Assembly: GCA_947041165.1 (NCBI GenBank)
Contig: CAMRCY010000007.1
Span: 1-64,000 of the forward strand
From: an uncultured Deferribacteraceae bacterium
Lineage (GTDB): Bacteria > Chrysiogenota > Deferribacteres > Deferribacterales > Mucispirillaceae
Direction: 5' to 3'
DNA length: 64,000 bases
In this document: positions 12,380 to 35,812 of the stretch, one piece after another
Numbering within the stretch: position 1 is the first letter of the stretch
Layout of the letters: the number at the start of each line of letters is the position of its first letter
Program-made: the position numbers and the translations under genes
The notes under the pieces: model-generated
Databases searched by the model: none
What the model was told of the DNA's origin: nothing
Seen by the model: the letters and a program-made list of their open reading frames with translations, nothing else

Positions 12380-12855
12380 AAACTCACAATGCATAAACCG
12401 TTGCAAACTCGTACACCGTTGCAAAATCGCACACCGTTACAAACTTGCACACCGTTACAAATCGCACACCGTTGCAAACTCACATACCGTTGCAAAATCG
12501 CACACCGTTGCAAACTCGCATACCGTTGCAAACTCGCATACCGTTGCAAACTCGTACACCGTTGCAAAATCGCACACCGTTACAAACTCACATACCGTTG
12601 CAAACTTGCATACCGTTGCAAACTCGCACACCGTTACAAACTCACATACTGTTACAAATTTGCACACCGTTGCAAACTCACATACCGTTGAAAACTCGTA
12701 CACCGTTACAAACTCGCATACTGTTACAAACTCGCACACCGTTGCAAACTCGCACACCGTTACAAACTCGCAATGCACATACCTGTTGCAAACTCGCATA
12801 CCGTTACAAACTCACACACCGTTACAAACTCACACACAGTTGCAAACTCACACGG
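12380..12855. repeat. 18-bp minisatellite, about 26 copies
   Basis: A tandem array with consensus ACCGTTGCAAACTCGCAC (18 bp), changed mostly by single transitions and one 17-bp unit near 12457. Since 18 is divisible by three and the unit lacks stops in several frames, long false reading frames with six-residue repeats (such as TVANSH) appear on both strands. The array fills the gap between the dedA start and the recN stop and ends about 18 bases from that stop. The rest of 12265-12872 is AT-rich and empty. Confidence 0.95.
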
Positions 12856-12872
12856 TAACTTTAATCATATAT

Positions 12873-14525
12873 TTATTGCTTACTGGACTCAATCAATTCT
12901 CTTGCTTGAGAGAGTGACGTTTCGCTTTCACTACCCGTCATCATTATTGCTAAAACTTTCTCTCTTTCATCACTATCAAGTTTAATTATCTCAGTAGTAG
13001 TAAGCTCTGTATCTGCTTTCTTAATAATATGAAAATGACTATCAGCCATTGCTGCAACAACTGGAAGATGTGTTATAACTATCAACTGTTTTGTGCTACT
13101 TAAAGATTTCAATCTTTCAGCAACCGATTTCGCAGCCTTACCACTTATTCCTGTATCTATCTCGTCAAATAAAAGCGTCTCAACATGATCGCTATCTGCA
13201 AACACTTCTTTAAGTGATAACATAACTCTTGAAATCTCTCCACCTGATGCAACTGATGCAAGAGGTTGTAAATCAAAACCTTTATTAGTTGATATATAAA
13301 ACTCTGCTACAACTCCACCGTTTTTGTCAAGATCTGGAAGTTCTGTAAATCTAACTTCAAACCTTGAACCGTTAAGTTCTAAATGTTCCAATATCGTTAC
13401 AATCTTCTCTGATAAGTTTTTAGATAACTCCTGACGAGAACCATTTAAAACCTCTGCTTTCTCAGAAGCTTCTTTTCTACATATCGATAACTCTTCAACA
13501 AGTTGTGCTTGTATCTCTTTAAAATTATCAATCCTGCTTAACTTCTCTTGTAACTCATCCCTCTTAACCAATATAATATCTATATCTTGTGTAGAATATT
13601 TTTTGTATAAATTAGCAAGTTTATATTTTCTTTCAATAAGATTATTTAACTCATTTTCAGAATTCTCTTGTTTATCAAAAACATTTTTAATCAACTTAAC
13701 CGACTCTTCAATCTGCTCATATGAACTCTTTATCATATCAGAAGCTTTAGTTAAATCTGGCGATAATTTCTCTACAGCAAATAACGATTTAGATGATTTT
13801 GAAATAAGCTCCATAGCCGAGATTTCACCCTCTTCTAAAATATCTATAACTGTTGCAGTACACTGCTTTATCTTATCCATCTCTGATAGAAAAGTTATCT
13901 CGTTATCAATATTAGAATCTTTATCCCTATCTAGTGATAATAAATCAATCTCATTTATATCAAATTGATATAAATCTTTTAATCGGCTACTTTCATCTAA
14001 ATCTTTATTAAGATTATCTAATTCGTCTTTTTTATTTTTATATACACGATATGCTGATGCATAATTGTTCTTAATATTTATAGGTATAAAGTAGTCAATC
14101 ATACCTAAATGTCTTTTAGGATTAAAGAGAAGTTGATGTTCATGTTGTCCATGTATATCCATTAAAAACTCTGAAACTTCTTTAAGTTTATTAACTGGTG
14201 CAACTTTAGAATTTATCAACACTTTGTTCCGAGCCTCGCTATCTGCAAGTCTTGACAAGACGACTTCATCCTCAATATCAAAAGCAAATTTTAGATCCTC
14301 GTTCATTGAAGGTACATTAGAAAATGTTGCCTCTACTAATAACGGCAGACTATTATCTCTGAGAGTTGATTTATTGAACCTCTCTCCCATAAGAAATTTT
14401 AATGCACCAACAAGTACCGATTTACCAGCACCCGTTTCACCCGTTATAATATTTAAGCCAGGCCCAAAATCTAAACTAGCTTTTTTAATTACTGCAAGAT
14501 TTTCAACCGAAAGATAGGTTAACAC
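12873..14525 (-). CDS. recN: DNA repair ATPase RecN
   Basis: An SMC-like ATPase of double-strand break repair, about 550 residues. It shows Walker A GETGAGKS near residue 30, a long coiled-coil middle, the DIHGQHEHQLLFNP motif, the ABC signature ASGGEISR and Walker B LLFDEIDTGISG, then THLPVVAAMAD. I start it at the GTG at 14525, which has GGGGGAC about 8 bases upstream and overlaps the nadK stop by 7 bases; a TTG 15 bases earlier has no better site. It follows nadK, tlyA and dxs in a common bacterial gene order. Confidence 0.93.
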   Translation of the reverse strand: MLTYLSVENLAVIKKASLDFGPGLNIITGETGAGKSVLVGALKFLMGERFNKSTLRDNSLPLLVEATFSNVPSMNEDLKFAFDIEDEVVLSRLADSEARNKVLINSKVAPVNKLKEVSEFLMDIHGQHEHQLLFNPKRHLGMIDYFIPINIKNNYASAYRVYKNKKDELDNLNKDLDESSRLKDLYQFDINEIDLLSLDRDKDSNIDNEITFLSEMDKIKQCTATVIDILEEGEISAMELISKSSKSLFAVEKLSPDLTKASDMIKSSYEQIEESVKLIKNVFDKQENSENELNNLIERKYKLANLYKKYSTQDIDIILVKRDELQEKLSRIDNFKEIQAQLVEELSICRKEASEKAEVLNGSRQELSKNLSEKIVTILEHLELNGSRFEVRFTELPDLDKNGGVVAEFYISTNKGFDLQPLASVASGGEISRVMLSLKEVFADSDHVETLLFDEIDTGISGKAAKSVAERLKSLSSTKQLIVITHLPVVAAMADSHFHIIKKADTELTTTEIIKLDSDEREKVLAIMMTGSESETSLSQARELIESSKQ

Positions 14526-15394
14526 AACTCTGTCCCCCAACCTAATTTGTTTTTTAACACTGAGTAAAATGATTTATCTCTACTCGTAACTATTTGTGCA
14601 GGTTTTGGCGATCGTTTAATCGTAACAACATCACCGATATTTAAAGAATTTATAACCTGTCCATCGTGCGTAACCGATGCCTCAGATTTTGAAATATCTA
14701 CAGAAAATTTAATCGATACTTTTAACTCGCTATCAGCTGGAATTACAATCGGACGAATATATAATGTGTGTGGACAGATCGGCACTATCAATATAACATT
14801 CAACTTAGGATGTATAATAGGCCCGCCTGATGAAAGTGCATAACCTGTTGATCCTGTCGGAGTTGATACTATTAATCCATCTGCTCTAAACCGATTGATC
14901 ACCTCTAAATCGCTCTCAACTGTGATCTCCAGTATCTTAGATGTAATCGCTTTATTAATAACAATTTCGTTTAACGCATTAAATCCTGTCACAAAATTAT
15001 CACCATTATATATCTCGCTCTGAAGTCGCATTCTCTCTCTTATTATCAACTTATCATTTATTGCATCATCAATATAATTTTCTAAATCGTCTAATTGAAG
15101 CTCCATAATAAAACCAACTCTACCTAAATTAAACGGTAGTATCGGAACATCAATCTCAACAAACAATTGTAACGCATGTAAAAGAGTGCCATCGCCTCCT
15201 AACACAATTACAAACTTAGACTCACGACGCATCTCTTCAATAGTTGAAAAATTGATATCAATATTATAAGACTTTACATTATCTTCTAACATCAACGGTT
15301 GAATATTTTTAGACAAAAGTAAGGCAATAACTTTGCTAGCTACCACCTCAATACGATCATCAGACAATTTTACGATAACTGAAGCTTTAACCAT
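14519..15394 (-). CDS. nadK: NAD kinase
   Basis: NadK phosphorylates NAD to NADP using ATP or polyphosphate. The 291-residue sequence holds the GGDGT motif (VLGGDGTLLHA, about residue 68) whose aspartate is catalytic, the NE-type motif ALNEIVINKA, and STPTGSTGYALSSGGP, which binds the dinucleotide. Length and order are standard. Its end overlaps the recN start, so the two are translationally coupled; tlyA lies 80 bases upstream. Confidence 0.94.
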   Translation of the reverse strand: MVKASVIVKLSDDRIEVVASKVIALLLSKNIQPLMLEDNVKSYNIDINFSTIEEMRRESKFVIVLGGDGTLLHALQLFVEIDVPILPFNLGRVGFIMELQLDDLENYIDDAINDKLIIRERMRLQSEIYNGDNFVTGFNALNEIVINKAITSKILEITVESDLEVINRFRADGLIVSTPTGSTGYALSSGGPIIHPKLNVILIVPICPHTLYIRPIVIPADSELKVSIKFSVDISKSEASVTHDGQVINSLNIGDVVTIKRSPKPAQIVTSRDKSFYSVLKNKLGWGTELC

Positions 15395-15474
15395 TATAAA
15401 AACATCCTATTAATAATACTTAAACATCACGACTTAAACACTATACTAAAGCATAGCTAATCAAACATCACTAC

Positions 15475-16215
15475 TTAAATATCGTGATTATACCTAAAAA
15501 CAGATATATATTCAATGTTTCCTTTTCGCCCCTTAATTGGAGATTCATAAACATCAATTTTTTCAAAATTATGTTCAGATGCGAACTCTTCAATCTCACC
15601 TATAACTCTAAGCCTAACTGAAAGATCTTTAACAATTCCACCCTTCATAACTTCATCTTGCTTTGCTTCAAATTGAGGTTTTATTAAGGCTACATAAATT
15701 GATCCAGTTTTACAAAACTCAACTGCTTTTGGAATAATTTTTTTGAGCGAAATAAACGACAAGTCAGATAATAAAATATCCACCTTCTCACCTATTAGAT
15801 TGAAATCTATATACCTAAAATTAATCCCTTCCAATAAATTCACTTTAGGATTATTTTTCAATCGCTCATGAATTAAATTCACTCCAACATCAACCGAATA
15901 AATTTTAGCAGCATCATTTCTAAGTGCAACTTCTGTAAATCCACCTGTTGAACATCCAATATCTAAAACTACTTTATCTGTGAAATCCACTATCTTTCTA
16001 TCAACCACAGATTGAAGTTTTAAAGCACCCCTGCTCACATAATCATGCTCTTGCTTGAGCCTTATATCTGAGTCCACTTTTATCATCGTACCAGCTTTGT
16101 TGACCAGCACATCGTCAACCAATACAATGTCTTGAATGAGATAACTTCTTGCAATCTTAATATCTGTTGCAAAACCTCGTGATAACAAAAGCGAGTCTAT
16201 GCGTTCTTTACTCAT
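15475..16215 (-). CDS. tlyA: TlyA family rRNA 2'-O-methyltransferase
   Basis: A 246-residue protein with an N-terminal S4 RNA-binding domain (ERIDSLLLSRGFA...) and a Rossmann methyltransferase with SAM motif VLDIGCSTGGFTEVAL and a KDKE-type set of catalytic residues (LIKPQFEA, DVYESPIKGRKGN). TlyA methylates cytidines in 16S and/or 23S rRNA; some homologues are called hemolysins for historical reasons. Its start overlaps the dxs stop by 4 bases, in line with the conserved dxs-tlyA-nadK-recN order. Confidence 0.92.
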   Translation of the reverse strand: MSKERIDSLLLSRGFATDIKIARSYLIQDIVLVDDVLVNKAGTMIKVDSDIRLKQEHDYVSRGALKLQSVVDRKIVDFTDKVVLDIGCSTGGFTEVALRNDAAKIYSVDVGVNLIHERLKNNPKVNLLEGINFRYIDFNLIGEKVDILLSDLSFISLKKIIPKAVEFCKTGSIYVALIKPQFEAKQDEVMKGGIVKDLSVRLRVIGEIEEFASEHNFEKIDVYESPIKGRKGNIEYISVFRYNHDI

Positions 16216-18092
16216 AAGCTTTTAGAAATTTTCTCAAATATTTTATCAGCAGTTAAATCATGATCATTCCTAAGTGATGGAATATCTCCCTGCTCTACAA
16301 AACAATTAAGCCCAAACTTCTCTACAGATATAAATAACTTAGCCTCTTGTAAAACAGATTGAACCATTTCACCTAATCCACCTGATAACACGTTCTCTTC
16401 TATAGTTATTATAAGTGACTTACCTTTTAACTCATCAACCAATACCTTAACATCTAGTGGTTTTAAAAACCTTACATTTATCAGAGAGATAGAGTGACCT
16501 TTTTCAAGCAACTTTTTATATAATTTATATGCTTCGTTAAAAATATATCCATTAGATATGATAGCGATATCTTTCCCTTTAAAAACAATCTCAGGAACAC
16601 CCAGTTCAACGATTTGATTTTCAAGTTCAGGATATGTGTTAACACTCCCTCTTGGGTATCTTATAGCGACTGGTGATTTTAACGATAGAGATAAAGTTAA
16701 CATCTGTTCAAGTTCAAAACTATCTTTTGGCAGCATAACAATTATGTTTGGGATCGCTCTTAGGAAAGTTAAATCAAACACTCCATGATGCGTTGGACCA
16801 TCTGCTCCGACTAATCCAGCCCTATCAATACAGAAAGTTACGGGTAGATTTGATACGGCAACATCATGAATAATCTGATCGTAAGCACGTTGAAGAAAAG
16901 TTGAATAGACTGCAAAAAATGGACGCATTCCGAATGTTGCAAGCCCTGCTGAAAAAGCTACTGCGTGTTGCTCTGCTATCCCTACATCAAAAAATCTATC
17001 TGGGAAAATATTAGAAAAACCTCTAAGTCCTGTTCCATCTTTCATAGCAGCGGTGATCGCAACAACTCTATTATCAACTTTAGCAAGTGTGCATAAATTT
17101 CTGCCGAAACAATCTGACCATGATTCTACAAAGTTTGATGAACCACCAAGCTCCCCTGTTTCAACATTGAATGATGACACACCGTGATATATATCTGGTT
17201 TCTTTTCAGCAGGTGTATACCCTCTACCTTTCTGAGTTATAACATGTATGATAACTGGTTTTTTCTGTAAATAAGCATTGCTTAACGCTTTCTCGATATC
17301 ACCGATTTTATGCCCATTTATAGGTCCAATATATTTAATTCCAAGATTTTCAAAAATCGTTCCAGGGATAAAAAATGATACTAGCGATGACTCTATTTTT
17401 TTTATAAACTTTATAAACTTATCACCAAGTGGAGCATCTTTTAACATATGTCTAAGGTCTTGTTTAAACTTTGTTACAAACTCACCTGATAAAGATTTTG
17501 ATAGATAAGTTGAGAATGCTCCAACATTTTTATCTATACTCATTTCGTTATCATTCAACACGATAATTAGATTTTTCTTGAGCGATCCTGCATTGTTTAA
17601 ACCTTCAAACGCTAAGCCACCACCTAACGCACCATCACCTATTACGGCAACTGTTTTTATCTCTTTTCCAGTAATCTCGTTGCCCACTTTTATTCCAAGT
17701 CCAACCGATACCGATGTGCTTGTGTGTCCTGATATTGCAGTGTCATACTCGCTCTCTGTTGGTGAACAGAAACCCGATATGCCTTTATATTGACGTAGAG
17801 TTGAAAACCTTTCACGCCTACCTGTTAATAATTTATAAGCGTATGATTGATGTCCAACATCCCATACGATTTTATCTTTAGATAAATCTAACGAACGCAA
17901 TAATGCGATTGTTAACTCTATAACACCTAAACTTGGCGCTAAATGTCCACCTGTTTTTGAAACAGTTGTAATTATCTCATCTCTAAGCTCTGCTGCTAGA
18001 ACAGTCAAATCAGCATCACTAAGTTTTTTTATATCATCAGGAGTTGATATACTATCTAATACCAACTTCTTCTTTGTATTTTCATCATTCAT
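16212..18092 (-). CDS. dxs: 1-deoxy-D-xylulose-5-phosphate synthase
   Basis: DXS condenses pyruvate and glyceraldehyde 3-phosphate, the first step of the non-mevalonate isoprenoid pathway. The 626-residue sequence has the thiamine diphosphate motif GDGALGGGLAFEGLNNAG (about 153-170), the substrate histidines (SKTGGHLAPSLG, VWDVGHQSYAYKLLTG), the GPTHHGVFDL loop and the transketolase C-terminal domain. Together with ispA downstream on the same strand's upstream side it supplies prenyl diphosphates. A 270-base repeat gap separates it from ispA. Confidence 0.96.
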   Translation of the reverse strand: MNDENTKKKLVLDSISTPDDIKKLSDADLTVLAAELRDEIITTVSKTGGHLAPSLGVIELTIALLRSLDLSKDKIVWDVGHQSYAYKLLTGRRERFSTLRQYKGISGFCSPTESEYDTAISGHTSTSVSVGLGIKVGNEITGKEIKTVAVIGDGALGGGLAFEGLNNAGSLKKNLIIVLNDNEMSIDKNVGAFSTYLSKSLSGEFVTKFKQDLRHMLKDAPLGDKFIKFIKKIESSLVSFFIPGTIFENLGIKYIGPINGHKIGDIEKALSNAYLQKKPVIIHVITQKGRGYTPAEKKPDIYHGVSSFNVETGELGGSSNFVESWSDCFGRNLCTLAKVDNRVVAITAAMKDGTGLRGFSNIFPDRFFDVGIAEQHAVAFSAGLATFGMRPFFAVYSTFLQRAYDQIIHDVAVSNLPVTFCIDRAGLVGADGPTHHGVFDLTFLRAIPNIIVMLPKDSFELEQMLTLSLSLKSPVAIRYPRGSVNTYPELENQIVELGVPEIVFKGKDIAIISNGYIFNEAYKLYKKLLEKGHSISLINVRFLKPLDVKVLVDELKGKSLIITIEENVLSGGLGEMVQSVLQEAKLFISVEKFGLNCFVEQGDIPSLRNDHDLTADKIFEKISKSL

Positions 18093-18160
18093 ACTTACAA
18101 AAACCTTCTCAATACATTTTCAATATTTGGATCTATTAATTAGAGGAAATCGATTATTTA

Positions 18161-18354
18161 TTGTAACTTATTAACTATCGTAACTTGCTAACCATCGTAA
18201 CTTGTTAACTATTGTAACTTGTTAACCATTGTAACTTGCTAACTATCGTAACTTGCTAACCATCGTAACTTGTTCACTATTGCAACTTGTTAACTATTGT
18301 AACTTGCTAACTATCGTAACTTGCTAACTACTATAACTTGCTAACTATCATAAC
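18161..18354. repeat. 18-bp minisatellite, about 11 copies
   Basis: A tandem array of an 18-bp unit, consensus ATCGTAACTTGCTAACT plus one base, with variants TTGTT and CCATT. It lies between the dxs start and the ispA stop and ends about 9 bases from the latter. The core AACTTGCTAAC resembles the array at 35308-35812 (AACTTGCTCAAC). Confidence 0.93.
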
Positions 18355-18362
18355 ATTATCTA

Positions 18363-19268
18363 CTACTTATCTCTATATATAATATAATCTGATATGCCGT
18401 TTAGAATTTTTGCACGATCACCAAAAAACAAAATATCATCTTTTGCTTTAGTTAAAAGTTCGTTCAAAATTCTCTTTGACTCATCTAGTCCGAAAAGTGA
18501 TGGATATGTTAATTTAGATTGAGCCACATCTTTACCTGTGCTTTTACCTAAAACTTCTTTCGACGAAGTTATATCTAAAATATCATCTTGGATCTGAAAT
18601 GCTAAACCGATACTGTTTCCATATGATGAAAGTAATCTACACTCTTCTTCATCTGCATTAGCAAGTCTTGCACCTATTAAAATTGATGCTTTAATTAGCT
18701 CAGTGCTTTTATTCATGTGTATATATTTTAATAATGATTTGTCAGGAGTAGAATTTTCGCCGTATAAAATATCAGCAACTTGTCCCGCAATCATACCTTT
18801 ATCGCCTGATGACACTGAAAGGTTTGTTGAAATATCAACCCTAACTGTATCTGATATTGATGGAGATATACGTCTATCATTAATCAATTCAAACGCCCTT
18901 GTAACAAGTGCATCGCCTGATAAAATAGCTAACGCTTCACCGTATACTTTATGATTGGTTGGCTTGCCTCTACGATAATCATCATCATCCATCGCTGGGA
19001 GATCATCGTGAATTAATGAGTATGTATGAACCATCTCAACAGCTGCTGCAAATGGTACAACAATTTCGATATTGTCTGAAAATAAACTGTATGATGATAT
19101 TAGAAGTGATGCACGAATACGCTTGCCACCTGCAAATAAAGAGTAACGCATTGACTCAATTAATTTAGACGAATAACTCTCTTCTATCACAAGATATTTA
19201 TCTAAAAAACTATCAACCTTTAAGGCACACTCTTCAATAAAAGATTTAGCGTCAATATTATTCATCAT
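18363..19268 (-). CDS. ispA: farnesyl/geranyl diphosphate synthase
   Basis: A trans-prenyltransferase of 301 residues that joins isopentenyl diphosphate to allylic diphosphates. It has the first aspartate-rich motif HDDLPAMDDDDYRRG (about 90-104), the second QDDILD, and the KSTGKDV lysine. The chain length (C10, C15 or C20) cannot be fixed from sequence alone. The start is uncertain: TTG-ATG-ATG occurs in a row, and I take the first ATG. It overlaps the xseB stop by 11 bases, matching the common xseB-ispA-dxs operon. Confidence 0.94.
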   Translation of the reverse strand: MMNNIDAKSFIEECALKVDSFLDKYLVIEESYSSKLIESMRYSLFAGGKRIRASLLISSYSLFSDNIEIVVPFAAAVEMVHTYSLIHDDLPAMDDDDYRRGKPTNHKVYGEALAILSGDALVTRAFELINDRRISPSISDTVRVDISTNLSVSSGDKGMIAGQVADILYGENSTPDKSLLKYIHMNKSTELIKASILIGARLANADEEECRLLSSYGNSIGLAFQIQDDILDITSSKEVLGKSTGKDVAQSKLTYPSLFGLDESKRILNELLTKAKDDILFFGDRAKILNGISDYIIYRDK

Positions 19269-19530
19269 CAATATCTAACTTTTCCCTTTTAATATTTGTG
19301 CTTTCTATCGTTGCAACAGATATAATACTCTCAATATTATCAAGCGTACCTCTGCACTCATTTGCAAGAACCATACCTTCTTTAAATAATAAAACCGAGT
19401 CTTCAAGTGTAGAGTCTGTTCCCTCTAATTTAGAAACAATGTCCTCTAATCTAATCATCTTTTTCTCAAAATTTTTAATCTTATCTAAATCTTTACTACT
19501 ATCTTTAACTTTTTTATCTTCCATAATCAA
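19258..19530 (-). CDS. xseB: exodeoxyribonuclease VII small subunit
   Basis: A 90-residue, mostly helical protein. It has the XseB core pattern FEKKMIRLEDIVSKLEGTDSTLEDSVLLFKEG in broken form: an IVxxLE helix, a short LxxS turn and an LFxEG helix. XseB binds XseA (gene at 40957-42363 here) to make the single-strand exonuclease VII. An acidic tail ends in DIDDE. The frame overlaps ispA, fixing the reading frame and context. Confidence 0.88.
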   Translation of the reverse strand: MIMEDKKVKDSSKDLDKIKNFEKKMIRLEDIVSKLEGTDSTLEDSVLLFKEGMVLANECRGTLDNIESIISVATIESTNIKREKLDIDDE

Positions 19531-19598
19531 CTCTAAATATTATTAATTAATACTCACAAAACAATGTGATATTGGATACCTATAATCAATATAAATAT

Positions 19599-20066
19599 CT
19601 ATTTCGAACTCTTTTCAAGTATCCCTAAAACTCTCTTAGCATTACCTTTTGCTTTAACATTATATAAAGCCTCTTCTATAATTCCGTTCTCATCTATTAT
19701 AAATGTTGAGCGTTTAATACCTGTGATTAATCTGCCGTATAACGATCTATCTCCGTATGCAAAATAACTTTTCACAACTTCTTTATCGCTATCAACCAAC
19801 AGATCTATTTTTAAATTATATTTTTCTTTAAACTTTTTATGGCTCTCGCATGAATCAGGAGAGACACCTATGACAATAGTATTTAATGCTTCAAATTCAG
19901 CAATAAGTGATGTGAAATCGTTTGCTTGAAGAGTACAACCAGGAGTGCTATCTTTAGGATAAAAATAAAGAACTACTTTCTTGCCTCTAAGATCTTCTAA
20001 CTTTATATTTTGCTCATCTACATTTTGTAGTGAAAAACTAGGAGCTATATCACCCTTTTTTAACAT
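19599..20066 (-). CDS. bcp: peroxiredoxin, BCP/PrxQ type
   Basis: A 155-residue thiol peroxidase that reduces hydrogen and organic peroxides. The peroxidatic cysteine lies in PKDSTPGCTLQ (about residue 45), followed by LKFKEKYNLKIDLLVD and the GVSPDS segment. The usual second cysteine five residues later is replaced (CTLQAND), so it probably works as a 1-Cys enzyme or resolves with a distant or external thiol. It sits alone between the xseB gene and the rlmN repeat gap. Confidence 0.9.
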   Translation of the reverse strand: MLKKGDIAPSFSLQNVDEQNIKLEDLRGKKVVLYFYPKDSTPGCTLQANDFTSLIAEFEALNTIVIGVSPDSCESHKKFKEKYNLKIDLLVDSDKEVVKSYFAYGDRSLYGRLITGIKRSTFIIDENGIIEEALYNVKAKGNAKRVLGILEKSSK

Positions 20067-20169
20067 ATTGCACCTTTAATTATTTTATTTTTTTTTACAA
20101 CTTAATTGCACCAGTTTACTTTATTTTAATTTACGAACTTAACAATTCAAAATAATTTATTTTATATAA

Positions 20170-20486
20170 TTTGATAGTTCAAAATTATTCTAATCTACAT
20201 AATCTACAACTCAAAATTATTCTACGTTACTCAATCTACAACTTGAAATTATTCTACGTTACTCAATCTACAACTTAAAATTATTCTACGTTATGTATCG
20301 TAAAGTGCAAGTTCCGATTAATCTGCATCTTGCAACTTAGTTGCACCTGATAATTCTAACCTATATAATCTACTAACTTAAAATTACTCTACGTTATATA
20401 ACCATACAACTCAAAATCATTCTACGTTATATAACCATACAACTTGAAATTATTCTACGTTATATATCATAAAGTACAAGTTCCGA
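20170..20486. repeat. 32/33-bp tandem repeat with embedded rlmN tail copy
   Basis: Two blocks of a 32-33-bp unit (core AAATTATTCTACGTTA; CTACGTTA at 20222, 20254, 20286, then 20389, 20422 and 20455). Between them, 20284-20355 duplicates 20453-20524, a block that includes the last ~13 codons of rlmN, 169 bases away. The array runs directly into the rlmN stop. The rest of the 420-base gap (20067-20169) is AT-rich with no gene. Confidence 0.92.
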
Positions 20487-21536: not shown

Positions 21537-21548
21537 AATTCACAATTG

Positions 21549-21902
21549 CTACTCTGCAGACAAGGTTGCAATAACATTTTCATCAGTTTCTTCTATCGTA
21601 AAAAGTCTATCAAGGTTAGTATGCATAAAAACCTTTTTTATATCTTCGTTGATAGAGGTAAGTATTAAACTTTTTTCACTTTCTTTTATAACTCTTAACA
21701 TTCTTATTAACTCTCTTAAACCAGAACTATTTAGATAAGTTACGCGTGAAAAATTTATAACAAACACATCAACACTTTCCATTTTCACAGCGATATGATT
21801 TCCTAACTCTTCACCATTAAAAGAGTCAATCTCATATATCGGATATAAAAATTCAACTTTCTTCCCATTACTTAAAACTTCAGTATTTTCACTAAAAGAC
21901 AT
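21549..21902 (-). CDS. STAS-domain protein (anti-sigma antagonist-like)
   Basis: A 117-residue single STAS domain. The strand FVINFSRVTYLNSSGL carries the conserved serine (about 59-60) that a partner kinase would phosphorylate in SpoIIAA/RsbV proteins, followed by a helix (LRELIRMLRVI) and LDRLFTI. No anti-sigma kinase or sigma factor lies nearby, so its partner is elsewhere. It follows pyrE on the same strand, starts with GAGGATA upstream of ATG, and ends 12 bases before rlmN. Confidence 0.82.
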   Translation of the reverse strand: MSFSENTEVLSNGKKVEFLYPIYEIDSFNGEELGNHIAVKMESVDVFVINFSRVTYLNSSGLRELIRMLRVIKESEKSLILTSINEDIKKVFMHTNLDRLFTIEETDENVIATLSAE

Positions 21903-22006
21903 TTTTGTATATCCTCCGAATTAAAGATAATTTATTCTAACAGTTATAATTATTAAAAACAACTATAATATTTTAAAGGCACATCTTACTAAATAATAAA
22001 TATATT

Positions 22007-23561: not shown

Positions 23562-23597
23562 CTTACTACCATTAAATAATATTTTTGCAAATCTTTA

Positions 23598-24967: not shown

Positions 24968-24974
24968 ATATACC

Positions 24975-26176: not shown

Positions 26177-26177
26177 G

Positions 26178-27188: not shown

Positions 27189-28510
27189 TATTTGCCCCCT
27201 ACAGCTTTATCATTCTCTGTTGCTGCGACATGATCTTTCACTAAGAAATTTTTAGCGTATTGAATACTTTCCATAAGTTTCCTATTTGATATACAAACGT
27301 ACGAACAACATCCACACTCAATACAACTCATGAGGTCGTCTTTAAGAGCTTGATTGATATCGCCTTGCATTATCGAGTTATTAATCCCTGTTGGAGATAA
27401 TCTCATCACACATACATCAATACAACGTCCACATCTTGCACACGCCTCTTCATCATGATTTTTTATTTTTTCATTTAAAAGAAGTACAGATGACACTGTC
27501 TTTAATATCGGAACATCTAAATCCGCTATTGAAGTTCCTGTCATTAATCCACCTAAAATAATACGATTGTACTTATCTGGATCAAAATTCAATTTCTCAA
27601 GTAATGATCTCACCGTCGTACCCATTTTAACTATAATGTTCTGATGATTATCTATATCGCCTGAAACAGTTATAACTCTATCTATAACTGGTTTAGATTG
27701 CTTAACAGCTTCGTATATACCATAGATAGTAGAGATGTTTTGTATCATAACATTAACCGATGAAGGAAGTTCTCCCTTCTTAACCGTTCTGCCTAGAAGA
27801 ACATATATTAACTGTTTTTCGCCACTATATGGATACTTACGAGGTAGTTCTGCTATATCAATATTGCTACCTTTTGCAAGTTGTTTAAACTTATCTGTCT
27901 GCTCAGTAGTATTGCCCTCAAGTGCTACGATAACTCTTTTAATATTTAACTCTTTTTGAATAAATAATATCATTTCTATTAATTCATCAGCTTTATTTAT
28001 TAAAATTGATTGATCGCATGTTAAGTAAGGTTCACTTTCTGATGCATTAATTATAAGAGTGTCAACTTTTGATTTAGAGGAAGCATATTTAACGTAACTA
28101 GGAAAACCTGCACCACCCATTCCAAGAACACCCGCATTTTTGATAATACTCTCTGTGTCCTTCGTAGGAGATAGTTTAACATAATCACCAGATTGCTCTG
28201 ATGCTTTAATTACAATCCCTTCTGTTGTCATTAACTTACTATGCTTGATCTGCGTAATATCTTCTACAATCCCATCTACTGATGAATGTATGTCTATAGA
28301 AAATCCTGTTTCACTAGCTTTAGCAATAATATCTCCTGCTTTAACAACCGCACCCTTTTCAACTACAGGGATTGAGTTATTACAGAATGAATTACTAAGT
28401 GGATAGTAAAATAGCTCTCCATCAAGAACTGGCAACGTATTTATTATATTCGCATCAGCAAACTTATTTTGCTTAAGCTTAATACCGCCTTTAATTGAGT
28501 AAAGTTTCAT
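27188..28510 (-). CDS. rnfC: Rnf complex subunit C (NADH site)
   Basis: The 440-residue peripheral subunit that exchanges electrons with NAD. It has GMGGAGFPSYVK (glycine-rich NAD/FMN loop, about 131-142), NASESEPYL, and two [4Fe-4S] motifs CARCGRCIDVC and CIECGCCSYVC (about 360-410). It is the first rnf gene. The operon starts 7 bases after the dCMP deaminase stop, so both may share a transcript. The complex couples ferredoxin:NAD oxidoreduction to H+ or Na+ transport. Confidence 0.95.
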   Translation of the reverse strand: MKLYSIKGGIKLKQNKFADANIINTLPVLDGELFYYPLSNSFCNNSIPVVEKGAVVKAGDIIAKASETGFSIDIHSSVDGIVEDITQIKHSKLMTTEGIVIKASEQSGDYVKLSPTKDTESIIKNAGVLGMGGAGFPSYVKYASSKSKVDTLIINASESEPYLTCDQSILINKADELIEMILFIQKELNIKRVIVALEGNTTEQTDKFKQLAKGSNIDIAELPRKYPYSGEKQLIYVLLGRTVKKGELPSSVNVMIQNISTIYGIYEAVKQSKPVIDRVITVSGDIDNHQNIIVKMGTTVRSLLEKLNFDPDKYNRIILGGLMTGTSIADLDVPILKTVSSVLLLNEKIKNHDEEACARCGRCIDVCVMRLSPTGINNSIMQGDINQALKDDLMSCIECGCCSYVCISNRKLMESIQYAKNFLVKDHVAATENDKAVGGK

Positions 28511-28517
28511 ATTTTCT

Positions 28518-28964
28518 TCACCTTGTGTGTTTTACAACTTTTATATCTGTCTCTGAAAGAAGCTGTTCTGCTAATAAATCTTGATAGTCATCTAAATAAA
28601 CTATCTTCGATATACGAGCATTTATCAGCATCTTAGTACATATTGAACATGGTTTGTTAGTACAATAAACAACCGCACCATCTGTCGAAACGCCATGAAC
28701 AGCAGCTTGTATTATAGCATTCTGCTCTGCATGAACACCTCTACATATTTCATGTTGTGTGCCTGATGGAATATTCATAGTTGTACGTAAACAACCAACC
28801 TCTGATGCATGTGGTAATCCCGAAGGAGCACCGTTATAACCTGTTGATATAATAAAATGGTCTTTGACTAAAATCGCTCCTACCTGTCTTCTTATACAAG
28901 TTGATCTCTCTTTTGCAACTTCAGCCATTCTCATAAAATATTCATCCCAACCGATACGATCCAT
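28518..28964 (-). CDS. dCMP/cytidine deaminase (ComEB type)
   Basis: A 148-residue zinc deaminase. HAEQNAI (about 77) gives the zinc histidine and proton-shuttle glutamate, and PCSICTKM (about 106-113) the zinc cysteines. The N-terminus GWDEYFMRMA and TCIRRQVGAILVKD match dCMP deaminases, which make dUMP for thymidylate synthesis; in transforming bacteria the homologue is ComEB. It lies between glyA and rnfC on one strand. Confidence 0.92.
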   Translation of the reverse strand: MDRIGWDEYFMRMAEVAKERSTCIRRQVGAILVKDHFIISTGYNGAPSGLPHASEVGCLRTTMNIPSGTQHEICRGVHAEQNAIIQAAVHGVSTDGAVVYCTNKPCSICTKMLINARISKIVYLDDYQDLLAEQLLSETDIKVVKHTR

Positions 28965-29024
28965 AAAATATCTACCTATTATCTATTATTTCTATACATA
29001 TTCTATAACTCATACAAAATCACT

Positions 29025-30272
29025 CTACTTTATGTAAAGAGGAAACGCAAGACACAATTTCTGGACTATTTTCTTTACTGACAGTATCTTCTCTTTATCA
29101 GTAATATTATTTAGTACTTCGATTATAAGATCTGCAATCGATTCCATCTGTGCTTCACACATACCTCTGCTTGTAATCGCAGCCGTTCCGATCCTAATAC
29201 CACTTGTAACAAATGGTGATTCAGTTTCATAAGGTATAGTATTTTTATTTGTAGTAATATTTGCAGCATCAAGTGCTATCTGACAATCTTTACCTGTTAA
29301 ACCTTTGCTTCCAACATCTAATAATACTAAATGATTATCTGTGCCACCTGATACAATTCTAAAACCTTTTGCAGTTAATGCATCTGATAAAGCTTTTGCA
29401 TTCTTAACAATCTGAAATTGATACTCTTTATAATCTCTACCCATGCACTCTTTCAACGCTACAGCTTTTGCAGCGATAACATGCATCAATGGGCCACCTT
29501 GCATACCAGGGAAAACAAATGAATTAACTTTCTTAGCGATCGCTTCATCATTACAAAGTATCATTCCACCCCTTGGGCCACGCAATGTTTTATGAGTTGT
29601 TGTTGTAACAATATGTGCATATTCCATCGGAGAAGGATGAGCACCTGCAGCAACTAAACCTGCAATATGTGCCATATCTACCATAAGATATGCACCGATC
29701 TCATCAGCTATTTCTCTAAATGCTTTAAAATCTATTGTACGAGAGTAAGCTGATGCACCTGCAACTATCATCTTAGGTTTATGCTCTTTTGCTAACGCTC
29801 TAACATTTTCCATATCTAACATCTCAGTATCTTTTGACACACCGTATGATACAACTTTTAAAAACTTACCTGAAAAATTTACTGGTGATCCATGAGTTAA
29901 ATGTCCTCCATGTGAAAGATCCATACCCATGATCGTATCGCCTAATTCAAGTAATGAAAAGTATGCTGCAAAGTTTGCCTGTGAACCTGAGTGAGGTTGA
30001 ACGTTTACATAATTACATTTAAAAACTTCCTTAGCTCTTTCAATAGCAAGAGTTTCAACTGTATCAACAAACTCGCAACCACCATAATATCTTTTACCTG
30101 GATATCCTTCTGCATACTTATTTGTAAGCAATGAACCTTGTGCTTCCATTACTGCCTCTGATACAAAATTCTCCGATGCGATTAATTCTAAATGCTCTTC
30201 TTGACGAGTTGCCTCTTGCATTATCGCCTTATAAATTTCACTATCTGCTTTCTCTAATACTTTGTAATCCAT
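29025..30272 (-). CDS. glyA: serine hydroxymethyltransferase
   Basis: A 415-residue PLP enzyme that interconverts serine and glycine and charges tetrahydrofolate with one-carbon units. The Schiff-base lysine lies in [15 protein letters not shown] (about 222-236), with ASENF and HSGSQANFA upstream. The one-carbon product links to metH and to the neighbouring dCMP deaminase via thymidylate. The last ~15 residues ([16 protein letters not shown]) are less family-like than the rest. The gap upstream (30273-30531) is AT-rich with weak repeats of TAACACAACT. Confidence 0.95.
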
Positions 30273-30531
30273 TCGTAACCCCTAAAAAACAAAATTATAT
30301 ATTTATAAACACTAACTCTTTAATTACCAATAAACTAATATTTTAACTGCTTAACACAACTAACTTAATTATCAATTCAAGAACACTAAGTTTACTAACT
30401 GCCTAACACAACTGTTTATACAATTGTTCAGCAAAAAAATATCTACCATGTTTAACATAATTAATTTTAGATTGATCGTAAAATAAACTCGTTAACTATT
30501 AATAAAAATTACATCGAAACTATCAATAAGA

Positions 30532-30981
30532 TTAATGTATATCTAATTTATCTCTTCTAATTAGATGACGTCCACCTTCAAACTCTGTTGATAAAAACTT
30601 CTCAATTATAGATTTGATTAACTCAATATTATCACCTAAAACTCTAGAGCCTAATGATAACACATTTGCATCATTATGTTTTCTTGTGATCTCTGCTAAC
30701 TCTTCACTTGAACACACCGCAGCTCTTATACCATCAAAACGGTTCGCCGCAATCGACACTCCTATACCTGTGCCACATATAAGTATGCCCACTTCTGAAC
30801 GCTCTGACAAAATCTCTTTTGCAACAGCTTGTGCATAATCAGGATAATCAACAGACTCTAACGAGAAACAACCACAATCAGTTATCTTATATCCTTTCGT
30901 GTTCAGATAATCTATTACTACTGATTTTAACTCATAACCTGCATGGTCTGAGCCCACTGCGATATTTAATATCTTACTCAT
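30532..30981 (-). CDS. rpiB: ribose-5-phosphate isomerase B
   Basis: The intact copy of three. RpiB interconverts ribose 5-phosphate and ribulose 5-phosphate, which feeds nucleotide and riboflavin synthesis. The 149-residue sequence has all expected residues: D12-H13 in GSDHAGYELK, C69 and T71 in CGTGIG, H102 in RKHNDANVLSLG, and arginines R138/R142 in GGRHLIRR that bind phosphate. The start is the ATG after GAGGTTAGGTTG; the TTG one codon earlier is not needed. Confidence 0.95.
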   Translation of the reverse strand: MSKILNIAVGSDHAGYELKSVVIDYLNTKGYKITDCGCFSLESVDYPDYAQAVAKEILSERSEVGILICGTGIGVSIAANRFDGIRAAVCSSEELAEITRKHNDANVLSLGSRVLGDNIELIKSIIEKFLSTEFEGGRHLIRRDKLDIH

Positions 30982-31221
30982 CAACCTAACCTCAAATATA
31001 TTACTCTACTTTCTTTAAAATCAAACTAAGAAACAATCCTCTAAATTCTACTCAAAAAAACTTACTTAATGACCTCAAAACTTATAACAAATTCTACTCT
31101 AAAATATTCACTATAATTTCAATACATGTCACTAAACTCTACTCAAAAACTTGCTTAACAATCTCAACATTTATCGCAAATTCTATTAGTAAATATCCAC
31201 TATTATTTCAATATATATCGC

Positions 31222-31432
31222 TAAATTCTACTCGTAAAACTTGCCAATTATTTCAAAACATGTTGCAAATTTTATTCACAAACTTGATCGCAAACTTGCT
31301 CAACTAAATTTTATAAACAATCTTAAATTGATAAAAACTTGCCAATTATTCAAAACATGTTGCAAATTTTATTCACAAACTTGATCGCAAACTTGCTCAA
31401 CTAAATTTTATAAACAATCTTAAATTGATAAG
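31222..31432. repeat. 98-bp direct repeat, two copies, at rpiB-like stop
   Basis: Two nearly identical ~97-bp copies (about 31238-31335 and 31336-31432). They contain AAACATGTTGCAAATTTTATT, GCAAACTTGCTCAACTA and AATCTTAAATTGATAA, and the second runs into the end of the rpiB-like gene at 31420. A third copy lies at 31961-32060. The rest of the 435-base gap (30985-31221) has looser repeats of CTAAATTCTACTC and CAAAACTTATC words and no gene. Confidence 0.88.
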
Positions 31433-31818
31433 AACTTGTCAACTATTAACTTGGCTAAATCCATATCATCACCGATTGTCTTAGCACCTAATGATAACAC
31501 ATTTGCATCATCTTGTTTTCTTGCAGTCGATGCTTTCTCTTCGCTATCACATACAACAGCCCTTACACCATCGTAACCATTGGAAACCCTCGCCGCACCG
31601 TTACCTGAAGAACATATAACGATACCTACCGTTGAACGCTCTGATAAAATCTCTTTCACAACAGCATGAGCGTATTCAGGATTATCAGAAGGCTCTTTTG
31701 AAAAACAACCACAATCCGTTACGTTATAACCTTTACTTTTTAAATAATCTATAATTACTAATTTCAACTCATAACCAACGTGTTTTGAGCCTACCGCTAT
31801 ATTTAATTCCTTACCCAT
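31420..31818 (-). CDS. degenerate RpiB paralogue 2
   Basis: A 132-residue RpiB-fold protein whose active site is altered. The first motif is GSKHVG (aspartate to lysine), the cysteine loop CSSGNG (cysteine kept, threonine to serine), and the catalytic histidine is lost (RKQDDANVLSLG). It stops at KFLSI, so the phosphate-binding arginine tail is missing. Yet the frame is open and has the same AAGGATTAGGTTG-ATG start context. Its last 33 residues are identical to paralogue 3. It may be inactive, a subunit that pairs with RpiB, or an isomerase for another sugar phosphate. Confidence 0.75.
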   Translation of the reverse strand: MGKELNIAVGSKHVGYELKLVIIDYLKSKGYNVTDCGCFSKEPSDNPEYAHAVVKEILSERSTVGIVICSSGNGAARVSNGYDGVRAVVCDSEEKASTARKQDDANVLSLGAKTIGDDMDLAKLIVDKFLSI

Positions 31819-31960
31819 CAACCTAATCCTTATTACAATATATATTCTAAACATTTTTGAGAATATTTTAAACCTAAACTAAAACCTACTCTGAAACTAA
31901 TAACAAACTTGCTCAACTATACTTTGTCAACCATCTTAAAACATAGCGTAAATTCTACTC

Positions 31961-32060
31961 GCAAACTTGCCAATTATTTCAAAACATGTTGCAAATTTTA
32001 TTCACAAACCTGATCGCAAACTTGCTCAACTAAATTTTATAAACAATCTTAAATTGATAA
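31961..32060. repeat. third copy of the rpiB-flank repeat
   Basis: A copy of the 98-bp unit from 31238-31432, differing by a few bases, that runs into the end of rpiB-like paralogue 3. Gene tail and flank were therefore copied as one block. Confidence 0.88.
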
Positions 32061-32447
32061 GAACTTGTCAACTATTAACTTGGCTAAATCCATATCATCA
32101 CCGATTGTCTTAGCACCTAACGATAACACATTTGCATCATCTTGTTTTCTTGCAATCTCTGCTTTGTTTTCACTGCCACAGATAACAGCTCTTATACCAT
32201 CATGACAATTAGCAACAGCTGCAGCACCAGTACCAGAAGTACATATAAGTATACCAACTTCTGAACGCTCTGACAAAATTTCTTTCGCAACAGAGTTTGC
32301 ATACTCCGAATAATCAATATTCGCTTTTGAAAAACAACCACAATCTGTGATCTTATACCCTTTACTATTCAAATAATCTATAACTACTAATTTTAACTCA
32401 TAACCGATATGGGTTGAGCCAATTGCAATATTTAATATACTACTCAT
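32049..32447 (-). CDS. degenerate RpiB paralogue 3
   Basis: A second 132-residue RpiB-like protein. Changes against the intact copy are GSTHIG (aspartate to threonine), CTSGTG for CGTGIG (cysteine kept), RKQDDAN (histidine to glutamine) and loss of the ~17-residue C-terminal arginine tail. The start is the ATG following AGGATAGGTTG, preceded by an in-frame TTG. About 115 bases at its 3' end are nearly identical to paralogue 2, a sign of recent duplication or gene conversion, while the first halves have drifted. The open frame and ribosome site suggest it is still translated. Confidence 0.75.
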   Translation of the reverse strand: MSSILNIAIGSTHIGYELKLVVIDYLNSKGYKITDCGCFSKANIDYSEYANSVAKEILSERSEVGILICTSGTGAAAVANCHDGIRAVICGSENKAEIARKQDDANVLSLGAKTIGDDMDLAKLIVDKFLSI

Positions 32448-32568
32448 CAACCTATCCTCTTTATAATCACTAAGCTGATCACTCTACTTTCTTCAAAACA
32501 TACTCTAAAACATAACCTAAAACATATAAATGAAATCTATCAAATACTAATCTCAACTTTATATTTTA

Positions 32569-33582
32569 TTAATCACTTTTTGGAGTGAAATCAATTTTAG
32601 ACGTAAATGCAGAATCAGGATCTGAATTATTATCAGCTTCAATATCACCATCTAAACCACCTTTCAAATCGTGGTTATAAAGTGGACGTTCAAGCAATCT
32701 ATCGTAACTTGACCACTCACCACCTGCAACATTATCTTTGGCAAATACAGATTCAAATGTTTGCATTTTAGCATCTATGTTATCAATATAATGAAGCAGA
32801 AATGCTTCACGTATTTTAGGACGTTTAGGAGAGCCATACTCTAAATAACCGTGGTGCGATGCTATTAAATGTAGAACCAATGTTTCTGCCATTTTAGGAA
32901 ATCCATCAATCTTTGCAACATAACCACGAACCATATCTATACCTATAAGAAGATGTCCTAACAATCTGCCATCATCTGTATATTCAAAACCATTCTCTAT
33001 ATCTAACTCATGAATTTTTCCTACATCGTGAAATAAAACTCCCATGAAAAGTAGATCTCTATTCACAACTGGACCGTAAAAATCTGCAACCAATTTAGAT
33101 AATTTCAACATAGATAATGTGTGATCTAAAAGTCCATTAATATATGCATGATGAACTGTTTTTGCAGCAGGACTTCTCATAAACATATCAAACTGGTATT
33201 TATCTTCTATAAACATAGTTGCAAGCGATTTAAAATAATCTGCCTCTACATTCTTATTAAGAAAACTTGTAAGCTCAATAACCATAGCTTCCATATCTTT
33301 TCCACTTTTAGGTAGAAATAGAGATTTGTCAGCATCCTCAATCAATGTCATATCCTTAACTTTTAACTGTGTTACACCGTTATAAGATTGAACAACTCCA
33401 TCAATATTGACTACGCAGCCTTTCTCAACTTTGCACTTTAATTTGTTGCTATCAAACATAATTCCATTGATAACTATGCCATCTGTATCTGATAAAGATA
33501 ATCGTAAATAAGGTTTATTATCTTTCGTTTGTAAAGTTTGAAGATTAAATATCATATAATCTTTTTTAATACTAAGTTCCAT
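32569..33582 (-). CDS. YhaM-like HD-domain 3'-5' exoribonuclease
   Basis: A 337-residue protein with an N-terminal OB-fold (about 1-90; VNIDGVVQSYNGVTQLKVK is the nucleic-acid-binding type) and an HD domain with HHAYINGLLDHTLS, LFHDVGKIHEL and HHGYLEYGSPKRP as metal ligands. This layout is that of YhaM, which trims RNA and single-stranded DNA. A short acidic tail follows. It is placed upstream of the rpiB-like genes and downstream of two small genes. Confidence 0.85.
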   Translation of the reverse strand: MELSIKKDYMIFNLQTLQTKDNKPYLRLSLSDTDGIVINGIMFDSNKLKCKVEKGCVVNIDGVVQSYNGVTQLKVKDMTLIEDADKSLFLPKSGKDMEAMVIELTSFLNKNVEADYFKSLATMFIEDKYQFDMFMRSPAAKTVHHAYINGLLDHTLSMLKLSKLVADFYGPVVNRDLLFMGVLFHDVGKIHELDIENGFEYTDDGRLLGHLLIGIDMVRGYVAKIDGFPKMAETLVLHLIASHHGYLEYGSPKRPKIREAFLLHYIDNIDAKMQTFESVFAKDNVAGGEWSSYDRLLERPLYNHDLKGGLDGDIEADNNSDPDSAFTSKIDFTPKSD

Positions 33583-33618
33583 CCCACACCTTTAATAAAT
33601 TAACACAATGTGATAATA

Positions 33619-33906
33619 TTAATCGAAATCAATATTTTCAGATTCTGTTATAGTTAAATTTTCTATTAAAAAACCGTCTAATCGCAGAGACTCTAGAACT
33701 TCTAAAAGAGTATCCTTCATAGACGATGTTGTCATCATTATACAATTATTATCATACAAAGAATCTGTTCTAATCATCGCTAAAGATTCATAAGAGTCTA
33801 CAATAGAGTTGATTAAAACTATATCCTTTGGTTCAGTATTAAATCTTATTTTATAAGATTTTTCAATATCTATATTATCTATATTATCAATATTAACGCT
33901 ACTCAT
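33619..33906 (-). CDS. small hypothetical protein, DUF4911-like
   Basis: A 95-residue acidic protein. A Ile/Asp-rich start (NIDNIDNIDIE, from a small in-frame repeat) is followed by a beta-rich core: YKIRFNTEPKDIVLINSIVD, LAMIRTDSL, CIMMTTSS and a helix LLEVLESLRLDGFL. The pattern recalls DUF4911 proteins found beside nusB or YhaM-like genes in delta-like bacteria; I cannot confirm it. It starts 2 bases before the next gene ends, so the two are co-transcribed. Confidence 0.55.
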   Translation of the reverse strand: MSSVNIDNIDNIDIEKSYKIRFNTEPKDIVLINSIVDSYESLAMIRTDSLYDNNCIMMTTSSMKDTLLEVLESLRLDGFLIENLTITESENIDFD

Positions 33907-33908
33907 AT

Positions 33909-34295
33909 CTATGTAAACTCTATATATTTTACTGTGATATAAGGAAGTGCATTATTTAATTGATGAACATCTAATAGAGCTGATTTCTCAATATATATAA
34001 TTTTGCTTTTAAGATTGTTTATCATTTTTAAAAACTTTTTCATATCTTTATTTACATTTTCGAAATCTAAAAGAAATACTCCTCTTTCAAACAACATCGG
34101 GATATGTCTGTAAAAAACAGCTCCATTTAAATCAAGAGGATCAAGTCTTTTTTGCATGTTGCCGTATGAAAAGAAATCCAATTTTAACGAACCACCCCTT
34201 GGAGTTTTTTTCACAAAATCGTAATCCAAAATAATCGGATAATTATCTTCAGGTAAATCATTAAAATAAACAACACTACTATTCTTCTCGTCCAT
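33909..34295 (-). CDS. hypothetical protein
   Basis: A 128-residue soluble protein I do not recognise. It has no signal peptide or membrane helix, begins MDEKNSSVVYFND, and contains a central YRHIPMLFERGVFLLDFENV and an LKSKIIYIEKSAL segment. Its place between nusB and a DUF4911-like gene, with 15 bases to nusB, suggests a shared transcript with RNA-related genes (nusB, YhaM). It carries a plausible ribosome site (AGGGGGAAT) before ATG. Confidence 0.6.
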   Translation of the reverse strand: MDEKNSSVVYFNDLPEDNYPIILDYDFVKKTPRGGSLKLDFFSYGNMQKRLDPLDLNGAVFYRHIPMLFERGVFLLDFENVNKDMKKFLKMINNLKSKIIYIEKSALLDVHQLNNALPYITVKYIEFT

Positions 34296-34310
34296 TTATT
34301 CCCCCTAGAA

Positions 34311-34715
34311 CTAAAACGATCTAGATATATTATCTAATATACCATTAACAAATGCAGCAGATTTATCATCACCATAATATTTTGCGATAGCCGTATAATC
34401 TCTCAAAATATTAGACGCAGGACGACTCTTTTCAAATATCTCTGTTATCCCTAATCTTAATATTATACGTTCAATTAATGACAATCTCTCAATACTCCAC
34501 TTTGCTGACAAAAACTGAGCCACCAAAATATCGTTTTCTGCTGATTTATCTACTGTGCTAGATAGTAAAAATGAGATATCTGCTTGTTCATCTTCCGATA
34601 CCATCGGGTATTTTAACAAACAATTACTCTTTATATTCTCAATTGTATCTGATGTAATCTCGTATGCATATAATATCTGCACCGCAACATCTACTGTTAT
34701 ATTTTTTTTAGCCAC
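34311..34715 (-). CDS. nusB: transcription antitermination factor NusB
   Basis: A 134-residue all-helical protein that, with NusE, binds boxA in rRNA leaders. It shows the family pattern AVQILYAYEI near the N-terminus, ERLSLIERIILRLGITE in the middle and a C-terminal IAKYYGDDKSAAFVNGILD. It lies just downstream of ribH, the standard ribH-nusB order. Confidence 0.92.
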   Translation of the reverse strand: MAKKNITVDVAVQILYAYEITSDTIENIKSNCLLKYPMVSEDEQADISFLLSSTVDKSAENDILVAQFLSAKWSIERLSLIERIILRLGITEIFEKSRPASNILRDYTAIAKYYGDDKSAAFVNGILDNISRSF

Positions 34716-34762
34716 TTAAATTTAACTCTTCACTTCTATTTCTATATTTTTAAACAACTCAA

Positions 34763-35236
34763 CTATCCTTTTATCTGCTTAAATAGTGAAACCATCTCAA
34801 TAGCTGTTAACGCTGCATCAAAACCTTTGTTACCAGATTTTGTACCTGCACGCTCTATCGCTTGCTCGATCGAATCAGTTGTTAAAACACCAAAAATAAC
34901 TGGTATACCACTCTCCATTGAAGCCGCCGCAACACCCTTAGATACTTCGCTTGCAACATAATCAAAATGTGGAGTTGAACCTCTGATTACTGCCCCCAAT
35001 GTGATGACAACATCATATTTTCCTGATTTTGCCAATTTGAGAGATGTTAGAGGAATTTCATAAGCACCTGGAACTCTAATAACCGATATATCTTTGATAT
35101 CAGCACTATGACGAACTAGGCAATCTGTTGCACCTGCAACCAATTTTTCTGAGATAAAATCATTAAATCTCGATGAAACTATAGCAACTTTGATGCCCTT
35201 TGCATCTAACTGACCTTCTATTACTTTAAAAGACAT
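34763..35236 (-). CDS. ribH: lumazine synthase (6,7-dimethyl-8-ribityllumazine synthase)
   Basis: A 157-residue enzyme that condenses the RibA product line with 3,4-dihydroxybutanone phosphate, the step before riboflavin synthase. SSRFNDFI gives the aromatic stacking site, VPGAYEIPL the substrate strand, [18 protein letters not shown] the catalytic histidine loop, and [24 protein letters not shown] the family block. It lies across a 581-base repeat array from ribBA and precedes nusB. Confidence 0.95.
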
Positions 35237-35307
35237 AACGCCCCCTTCTTATAAACTTAAATATTCTATAATAACTTAATATATTTTAATTTTAACTATC
35301 ATCACGT

Positions 35308-35812
35308 ACTGTACAAACTTGCTCAACCGTGCGAATTTTTCCAACTGTGCGAACTTGCTCAACTGTGCGAACTTGCTCAACTGTGCGAACTTGCTCAACT
35401 ATGTGAACTGGCTCAATCGTGCGAACTTGCCCAACCGTGCGAACTTACTCAACTATGCAAACTTACCCAACCGTGCGAACTTGCCCAACCGTGCGAATTT
35501 TTCCAATCGTGCCAACTTACTCAACCATGCGAACTTGCTCAACTGTGCGAATTTTTCCAACTGTGCGAACTTGCTCAACTGTGCGAACTTGCTCAACTGT
35601 GCGAACTTGCTCAACTGTGCGAACTTGCCCAATCGTGCGAATTTTTCCAATCGTGCGAACTTGCTCAACTGTGTCAACTTTCTCAACTATGTGAACTTGC
35701 TCAACTGTGTCAACTTGCTCAACCATGCGAACTTGCTCAATCGTGTGAACTTGCTCAACCATGCGAACTTGCTCAACCATGCGAACTTGCTCAATCGTGC
35801 GAACTTGCCACA
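35308..35812. repeat. 18-bp minisatellite, about 28 copies
   Basis: A tandem array of consensus TGTGCGAACTTGCTCAAC (18 bp) with variants such as AATTTTTCC. It fills the gap from just after ribH to about 6 bases from the ribBA stop. Open frames on both strands repeat six-residue units (NCANLL and similar), as expected from a stop-free 18-mer, and have no ribosome site. The reverse complement of the 12380-12855 unit (TGTGCGAGTTTGCAAC) shares TGTGCGA and TTGC with it. Confidence 0.95.

Follow-up and report, generated by a model that had tools for sequence, protein, structure and literature searches.

Why should tandem arrays in separate intergenic gaps of one genome have nearly the same period and a related core? 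In the window (the whole 64-kb stretch of DNA analyzed here), the original prediction saw either a common seed that spreads or a protein with a preference for 18-bp spacing. We redefined the arrays with Tandem Repeats Finder, from which the array coordinates, periods, and copy numbers in Table 1 are taken, and compared this genome (G000) with one genome from each of three other species of the genus (G001, G002, and G003) and with eight genomes from two sister genera of the family (G004 to G011). The exact 18-bp unit claimed for three of the arrays was recovered at 12 and 35 kb, but the unit at 18 kb is one base shorter, and the 10-kb array, previously read as a 54-bp unit of three 18-mers, likewise has a best unit that is one base short of that length. 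Many further arrays are present in the window, with units of 16, 32 to 33, 57, 59, 68, 89, 97, and 148 bp. One of these is the 59-bp array (10 copies at 53138-53734); the corresponding gap of G003 contains a 45-bp array that is unrelated to it. Taken as a whole, the observation was partly confirmed and its first interpretation partly supported; the best explanation for the four arrays is that all belong to a single old, GC-rich minisatellite family.

Table 1. Tandem arrays of the window and the genes in front of them (window positions)
Feature	Position	Strand	Description	Context
Array A (10 kb)	10033..10297	-	53-bp unit (18+18+17), 4.3 copies; core CAAACCGTGCCAAGCG on the + strand	M23 peptidase gene (10290-11441, - strand), whose stop codon the array overlaps
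Array B (12 kb)	12397..12853	-	18-bp unit ACCGTTGCAAACTCGCAC (+ strand), 25.0 copies	19 bp past the stop codon of recN; gap empty in G003 and G002
Array C (18 kb)	18159..18354	-	17-bp unit TATCGTAACTTGCTAAC (+ strand), 11.5 copies	8 bp past the stop codon of the ispA-like gene, dxs next; 18-bp relative in G002; no array in G003
Array D (35 kb)	35308..35808	-	18-bp unit ACTGTGCGAACTTGCTCA (+ strand), 27.8 copies	9 bp past the stop codon of ribAB, ribH next; related sequence in the same gap of G001 and G002; no array in G003
89- and 97-bp repeats	31041..31447	+	Long-unit array, not an 18-mer; contains the 15-mer GCAAACTTGCTCAAC at 31290 and 31387	
recN	12873..14540	-		In front of array B
Farnesyl diphosphate synthase (ispA-like)	18363..19271	-		In front of array C
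ribAB	35818..37026	-		In front of array D

The relatedness of the cores held up. We aligned the units over their rotations and on both strands, using as controls the same units shuffled within their own composition. Three window units gave a mean score of 9.50, against 5.54 ± 0.72 for the shuffled units (z of 5.5), and the four together gave 9.25 against 6.44 ± 0.61 (z of 4.6). For six core units picked by eye, the score was 9.47 against 5.62 ± 0.32 (z of 11.9), and eleven further short units from elsewhere in the genome exceeded their shuffles with a z of only 3.7. The core is real and is confined to a subset of arrays. The 15-mer said to recur in the rpiB flank repeat has exact copies at 32016 and at the two positions in Table 1; the latter two lie in a 97-bp repeat rather than in an 18-bp array. 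The 89- and 97-bp repeats are flanked by two similar genes (30532-30984 and 32049-32450), a tandem duplication, and both genes are matched by a region of G003 in blastn.

The strict core pattern CCGTGCNAACTTGC, with one mismatch allowed, matched 36 sites in the G000 genome, versus 1 for the reversed pattern. The noncoding matches all fell within arrays, with no solo core copy among them, and one match on contig C19 (38150) lay inside a gene. One unit family occupies about ten G000 gaps: tsaE|valS, ribAB|ribH, fabD|fabG, the M23 peptidase gap, recN, ispA|dxs, ilvD, atpG|atpD, and the gaps on contigs C22 and C49. Contigs C44 and C57 are the two sides of the tsaE|valS gap, as shown by contig C14 of G002, while the C2 and C35 starts were joined across fabD|fabG by gene order, not by sequence. 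On that joining, the canonical fabD-fabG-acpP-fabF order appears to be split by a 17-bp array and the resulting contig break. Between atpG and atpD (L270:1479-1711) there is a short 19-bp core array together with a 32-bp repeat. GC contents in the four purest core arrays were 57, 50, 47, and 46%, compared to 24.6% in nonarray intergenic DNA and 26% in the average array.

With the C44 array as the DNA query, the core family was found in each of the four species examined from this genus. The eight sister-genus genomes gave no match to the core family, and two genomes from other families of the order gave none to the same query. The window is collinear with G003 and also with G002, in the latter along its short contig. 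In G003, the recN, ispA, and ribAB gaps have no array and the M23 gap has a different, 18/36-bp array; in G002 the recN gap is likewise empty, the ispA gap has a relative, and the M23 gap has arrays of the core type. The sequences related to the array behind ribAB in G001 and G002 lie at contig ends. Overall, the tsaE-valS and ribAB gaps are occupied in G000, G001, and G002, the M23 gap in all four species, and the ispA gap in G000 and G002. Arrays come and go at orthologous gaps between species. The 8-mer similarity of orthologous arrays (0.087) was close to that of arrays from different gaps (0.069; p = 0.19), which indicates rapid turnover of units within a family that endures. At the M23 gap, between-species k-mer similarity was 0.00 to 0.08, and the unit sequence is almost wholly different. 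The M23 gap also contains a strong terminator-like hairpin (window 9899-9932), and the placement of the array relative to the hairpin varies between species.

These comparisons bear on the idea of a seed that spreads. It is supported in part, in that there is a homologous GC-rich family at about ten gaps and throughout the genus, but because several loci are older than the species split, evidence for recent spreading of the family is absent. In an unlikely alternative, the core family would behave as a dispersing repeat whose array copies seed other gaps via ectopic gene conversion or template switching. The presence of the core at nine or more distinct G000 gaps, with no solo copy among the strict noncoding matches, would fit such a process, as would the slightly greater 8-mer similarity of different gaps within a genome (0.077) than between genomes (0.066). 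However, this excess, which gave an apparent p value of 0.03 to 0.08 and made interlocus homogenization a candidate, was not significant once contig ends belonging to one gap had been merged (p = 0.14 to 0.21), and homogenization was rejected. Several gaps are filled in three or four species, and no recent insertion was seen. No match was found in plasmid or phage records, and two matches to viral contigs were single chance sites without arrays; by these searches the family does not have the character of a mobile or phage repeat. Vertical inheritance covers the gaps common to several species; dispersal to the ten gaps may have gone undetected.

Arrays of all kinds were distributed unevenly with respect to gene orientation. 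They occupied 20 of 50 convergent gaps and 40 of 261 codirectional gaps but only 2 of 56 divergent (promoter) gaps (p = 5e-6 for convergent versus divergent), and within codirectional gaps 31 arrays were closer to the stop codon versus 13 closer to the start (p = 0.0096). The core arrays lie closer still: in eight of the nine G000 gaps measured they are no more than 21 bp from the stop codon, one of them overlapping it. The C22 array is ~33 bp behind the stop (array end 1553, gene end 1587), a distance read from the array end since the script had merged a second repeat there. A position within 25 bp of the stop was found for 8/9 core arrays versus 30/80 other arrays (p = 0.004). Moreover, the AAC strand is antisense to the front gene in 9/9 core gaps; for C49 the far-side gene lies beyond the contig, and the G001 C18, G001 gap A, and G002 C105 arrays sit at contig ends where the deciding neighbor is missing. 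The sense strand is richer in G than in C in 219 of 261 (84%) nonarray codirectional gaps. GC skew is thus a possible cause of the uniform orientation, which, given that codirectional gaps are G rich on the sense strand in any case, says little about mechanism.

A more novel reading is of a bacterial satellite family that spreads from locus to locus and settles, always in the same orientation, immediately behind stop codons, with an intrinsic unit made of two 8- to 9-bp modules; its foothold might be, for example, where nascent RNA is no longer covered by ribosomes. We consider this rather unlikely. It is quite unlikely, too, that the arrays arose independently in each gap and resemble one another only through strand-biased base composition. 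The G-over-C bias of the sense strand would indeed orient such arrays alike, and the other short units of the genome also score slightly above their shuffles, but shuffles of the same composition fall far below the hand-picked core set, core arrays have about twice the GC content of their surroundings, and the match between C44 and C7 extends over 467 bp at 72% identity.

A functional role in RNA, as spacers that affect, e.g., decay or the coupling of neighboring reading frames, seems to us improbable to a marked degree. Closeness to the stop codon, fixed orientation, and the location of core arrays inside canonical gene orders (fabD|fabG, atpG|atpD, ribAB|ribH, ispA|dxs, and tsaE|valS) would be in keeping with such a role. 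However, predicted folding was inconsistent (z of -2.5 to +2.8 in eight tests), G-quadruplex motifs were few, Rfam returned no match, orthologous gaps of G003 are without arrays, and periods of 17 and 19 rule out a conserved reading frame. Open reading frames that run across arrays proved to be artifacts of a period divisible by three and vanish in the 17- and 19-bp arrays.

Family arrays have a main period of 17, 18, or 19 bp, with the exception of C105 of G002 (23 bp), and most show a secondary period of 8/9 bp. In C49, the alternation of AACTGCCC and AAACTTGCG is visible by eye. Motifs within the 35-kb array are spaced by 18 in 24 of 28 steps and by 9 in the remaining four; the spacing is 18 in 21/23 steps at 12 kb, 17 in 10/10 steps at 18 kb, and 18, 17, and 35 at 10 kb. 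Single arrays have higher-order units (53 bp at 10 kb, 68 bp at 18 kb, and 71/176 bp in C44), and the series from 8/9 to 17-19 to 35-36, 53, and 176 bp is the hierarchy expected of slippage-type minisatellites. In contrast, the constant core spacing of iteron-type sites was not found: across loci of one genome the core is spaced 17 (C2, C35, C49, and the 18-kb array), 18, or 19 (C2:36834 and C10, as well as in G001). The orthologous array in the ispA-dxs gap differs in period by one base between this genome (17 bp) and G002 (18 bp), and so a fixed 18-bp spacing is not needed and is contradicted. That the arrays are protein binding sites with a preferred spacing of about 18 bp, whether iteron-like or nucleoid associated, is therefore highly unlikely despite the regular 18-bp spacing at 12 and 35 kb, the above-chance conservation of the core, and the uniform orientation, given these spacings of 17 and 19, the lack of an array in three of the four gaps in G003, and the nearly complete difference between species in M23 gap units. 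The argument against independent slippage as the source of a fixed period overlooks descent from one array, which preserves a period without any protein.

Genome-wide statements rest on an ~811-kb sample of G000, in which two sampled stretches were masked, and on whole-genome searches. The sample contained 73 arrays that were 80 bp or longer, with periods as short as 7 bp and as long as about 170 bp and a median of about 47 bp. A broad spread lacking an excess at 18 bp had been named as evidence against the original prediction; the spread is broad, but an excess does exist, as a band of 15 to 19 bp rather than at 18 itself (13 of the 73 arrays, versus 2 per neighboring 5-bp bin). Outside the core family, 8 arrays had periods of 15 to 19 bp against about 3.8 expected (a crude Poisson estimate gives p of about 0.04), and because the peak weakly persists there, descent is perhaps not its whole cause. 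Nonarray gaps showed no hidden 17- to 18-bp periodicity above controls; they showed an excess at many multiples of three, which was also seen in the sister genera.

Shares of noncoding DNA were calculated with a simple codon usage gene finder, and the G000 sample includes array-rich contig starts. By this measure arrays make up 16.9% of noncoding DNA in the G000 sample, 9.0% in G003, and 0% in G004; the 5.7% found in G005 consists nearly entirely of three arrays with units of 221 to 274 bp. Noncoding arrays are thus in excess in G000 and G003 over G004, with G005 differing in its long units. In the G000 sample arrays account for about 3.8% of the sequence, a lower bound, and 9 of 19 sampled contig starts begin inside an array; since arrays break contigs, the true share may be higher. 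The three repair genes that could be judged, those for MutS, RecJ, and XseA, all occur in the genus, and their loss was rejected as the source of this burst; a low MutS score was due to a Ser/Asn-rich linker before an intact C-terminal helix. In the MutS proteins of the four genus members, the linker ahead of the last helix is variable, and the sister genera are without it. The search for SbcC put none of the genomes in the set over the cutoff. Long coding repeats with 66-bp and 108-bp units, leucine-rich-repeat-like and Sel1-like in appearance, are abundant in the genus.

We consider it probable, with moderate confidence, that the core arrays are an old, vertically inherited minisatellite family within a genus-wide burst of repeats generated by slippage or unequal exchange and tolerated behind genes. 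The building block would be an 8- to 9-bp module (AACTTGC-C/AACTGTGCG and variants), doubled to the 17- to 19-bp unit and then to higher-order units of 35 to 36, 53, and 176 bp, presumably in place, by repeated slippage or unequal exchange. The shared core would reflect common descent, with family arrays at several gaps before the species split, and some earlier step would first have brought the family to those separate gaps. The period would be kept by descent and shifted by single-base indels. Such arrays, probably neutral, may survive in the stretch immediately behind stop codons because it contains neither promoter nor ribosome-binding sequence. Against this account stand the weak 15- to 19-bp peak outside the core family and the 46 to 57% GC of the purest core arrays, which is far above that of the host gaps and is not accounted for by simple slippage of local DNA.

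To our knowledge, multilocus homologous minisatellite families have seldom been described in bacteria, and a literature search that covered few subscription papers found no description of such repeats in this group. The heterocyst-forming cyanobacteria have heptamer repeats, termed STRR, and STRR and LTRR units are 7 or 37 bp long. The LTRR repeats are treated in PMC2408588, which cites Masepohl 1996. As in those systems, one short repeat family forms tandem arrays at many intergenic sites; unlike them, the arrays described here have 17- to 19-bp units and are tied to stop codons, and no homology is claimed. Noncoding tandem repeats are also known from Ehrlichia ruminantium (Collins et al. 2005, as cited in PMC7343930), where the mean period is 138.7 bp, repeats make up 6.3% of the genome, and copy changes have been ascribed to slipped-strand mispairing (PMC3287509). 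The likeness lies in an AT-rich genome in which tandem repeats, mostly noncoding, take up an unusually large share and break assemblies, whereas the shorter median period, the 15- to 19-bp peak, the smaller minimum share, and the cross-locus homologous family set the present genome apart. Wolbachia variable-number tandem repeat loci are intergenic arrays with internal repeats that have likewise been ascribed to slippage (PMC3287509), but they have few copies (mean below 3) and long units and are not described as one cross-locus family.

In the genus studied here, arrays account for part of the fragmentation of the assemblies. A single family can be traced over four species at the same gaps, its position and orientation fixed to the front gene, and it lets one ask how satellite-like DNA arises, drifts in period, and is tolerated in canonical gene orders.
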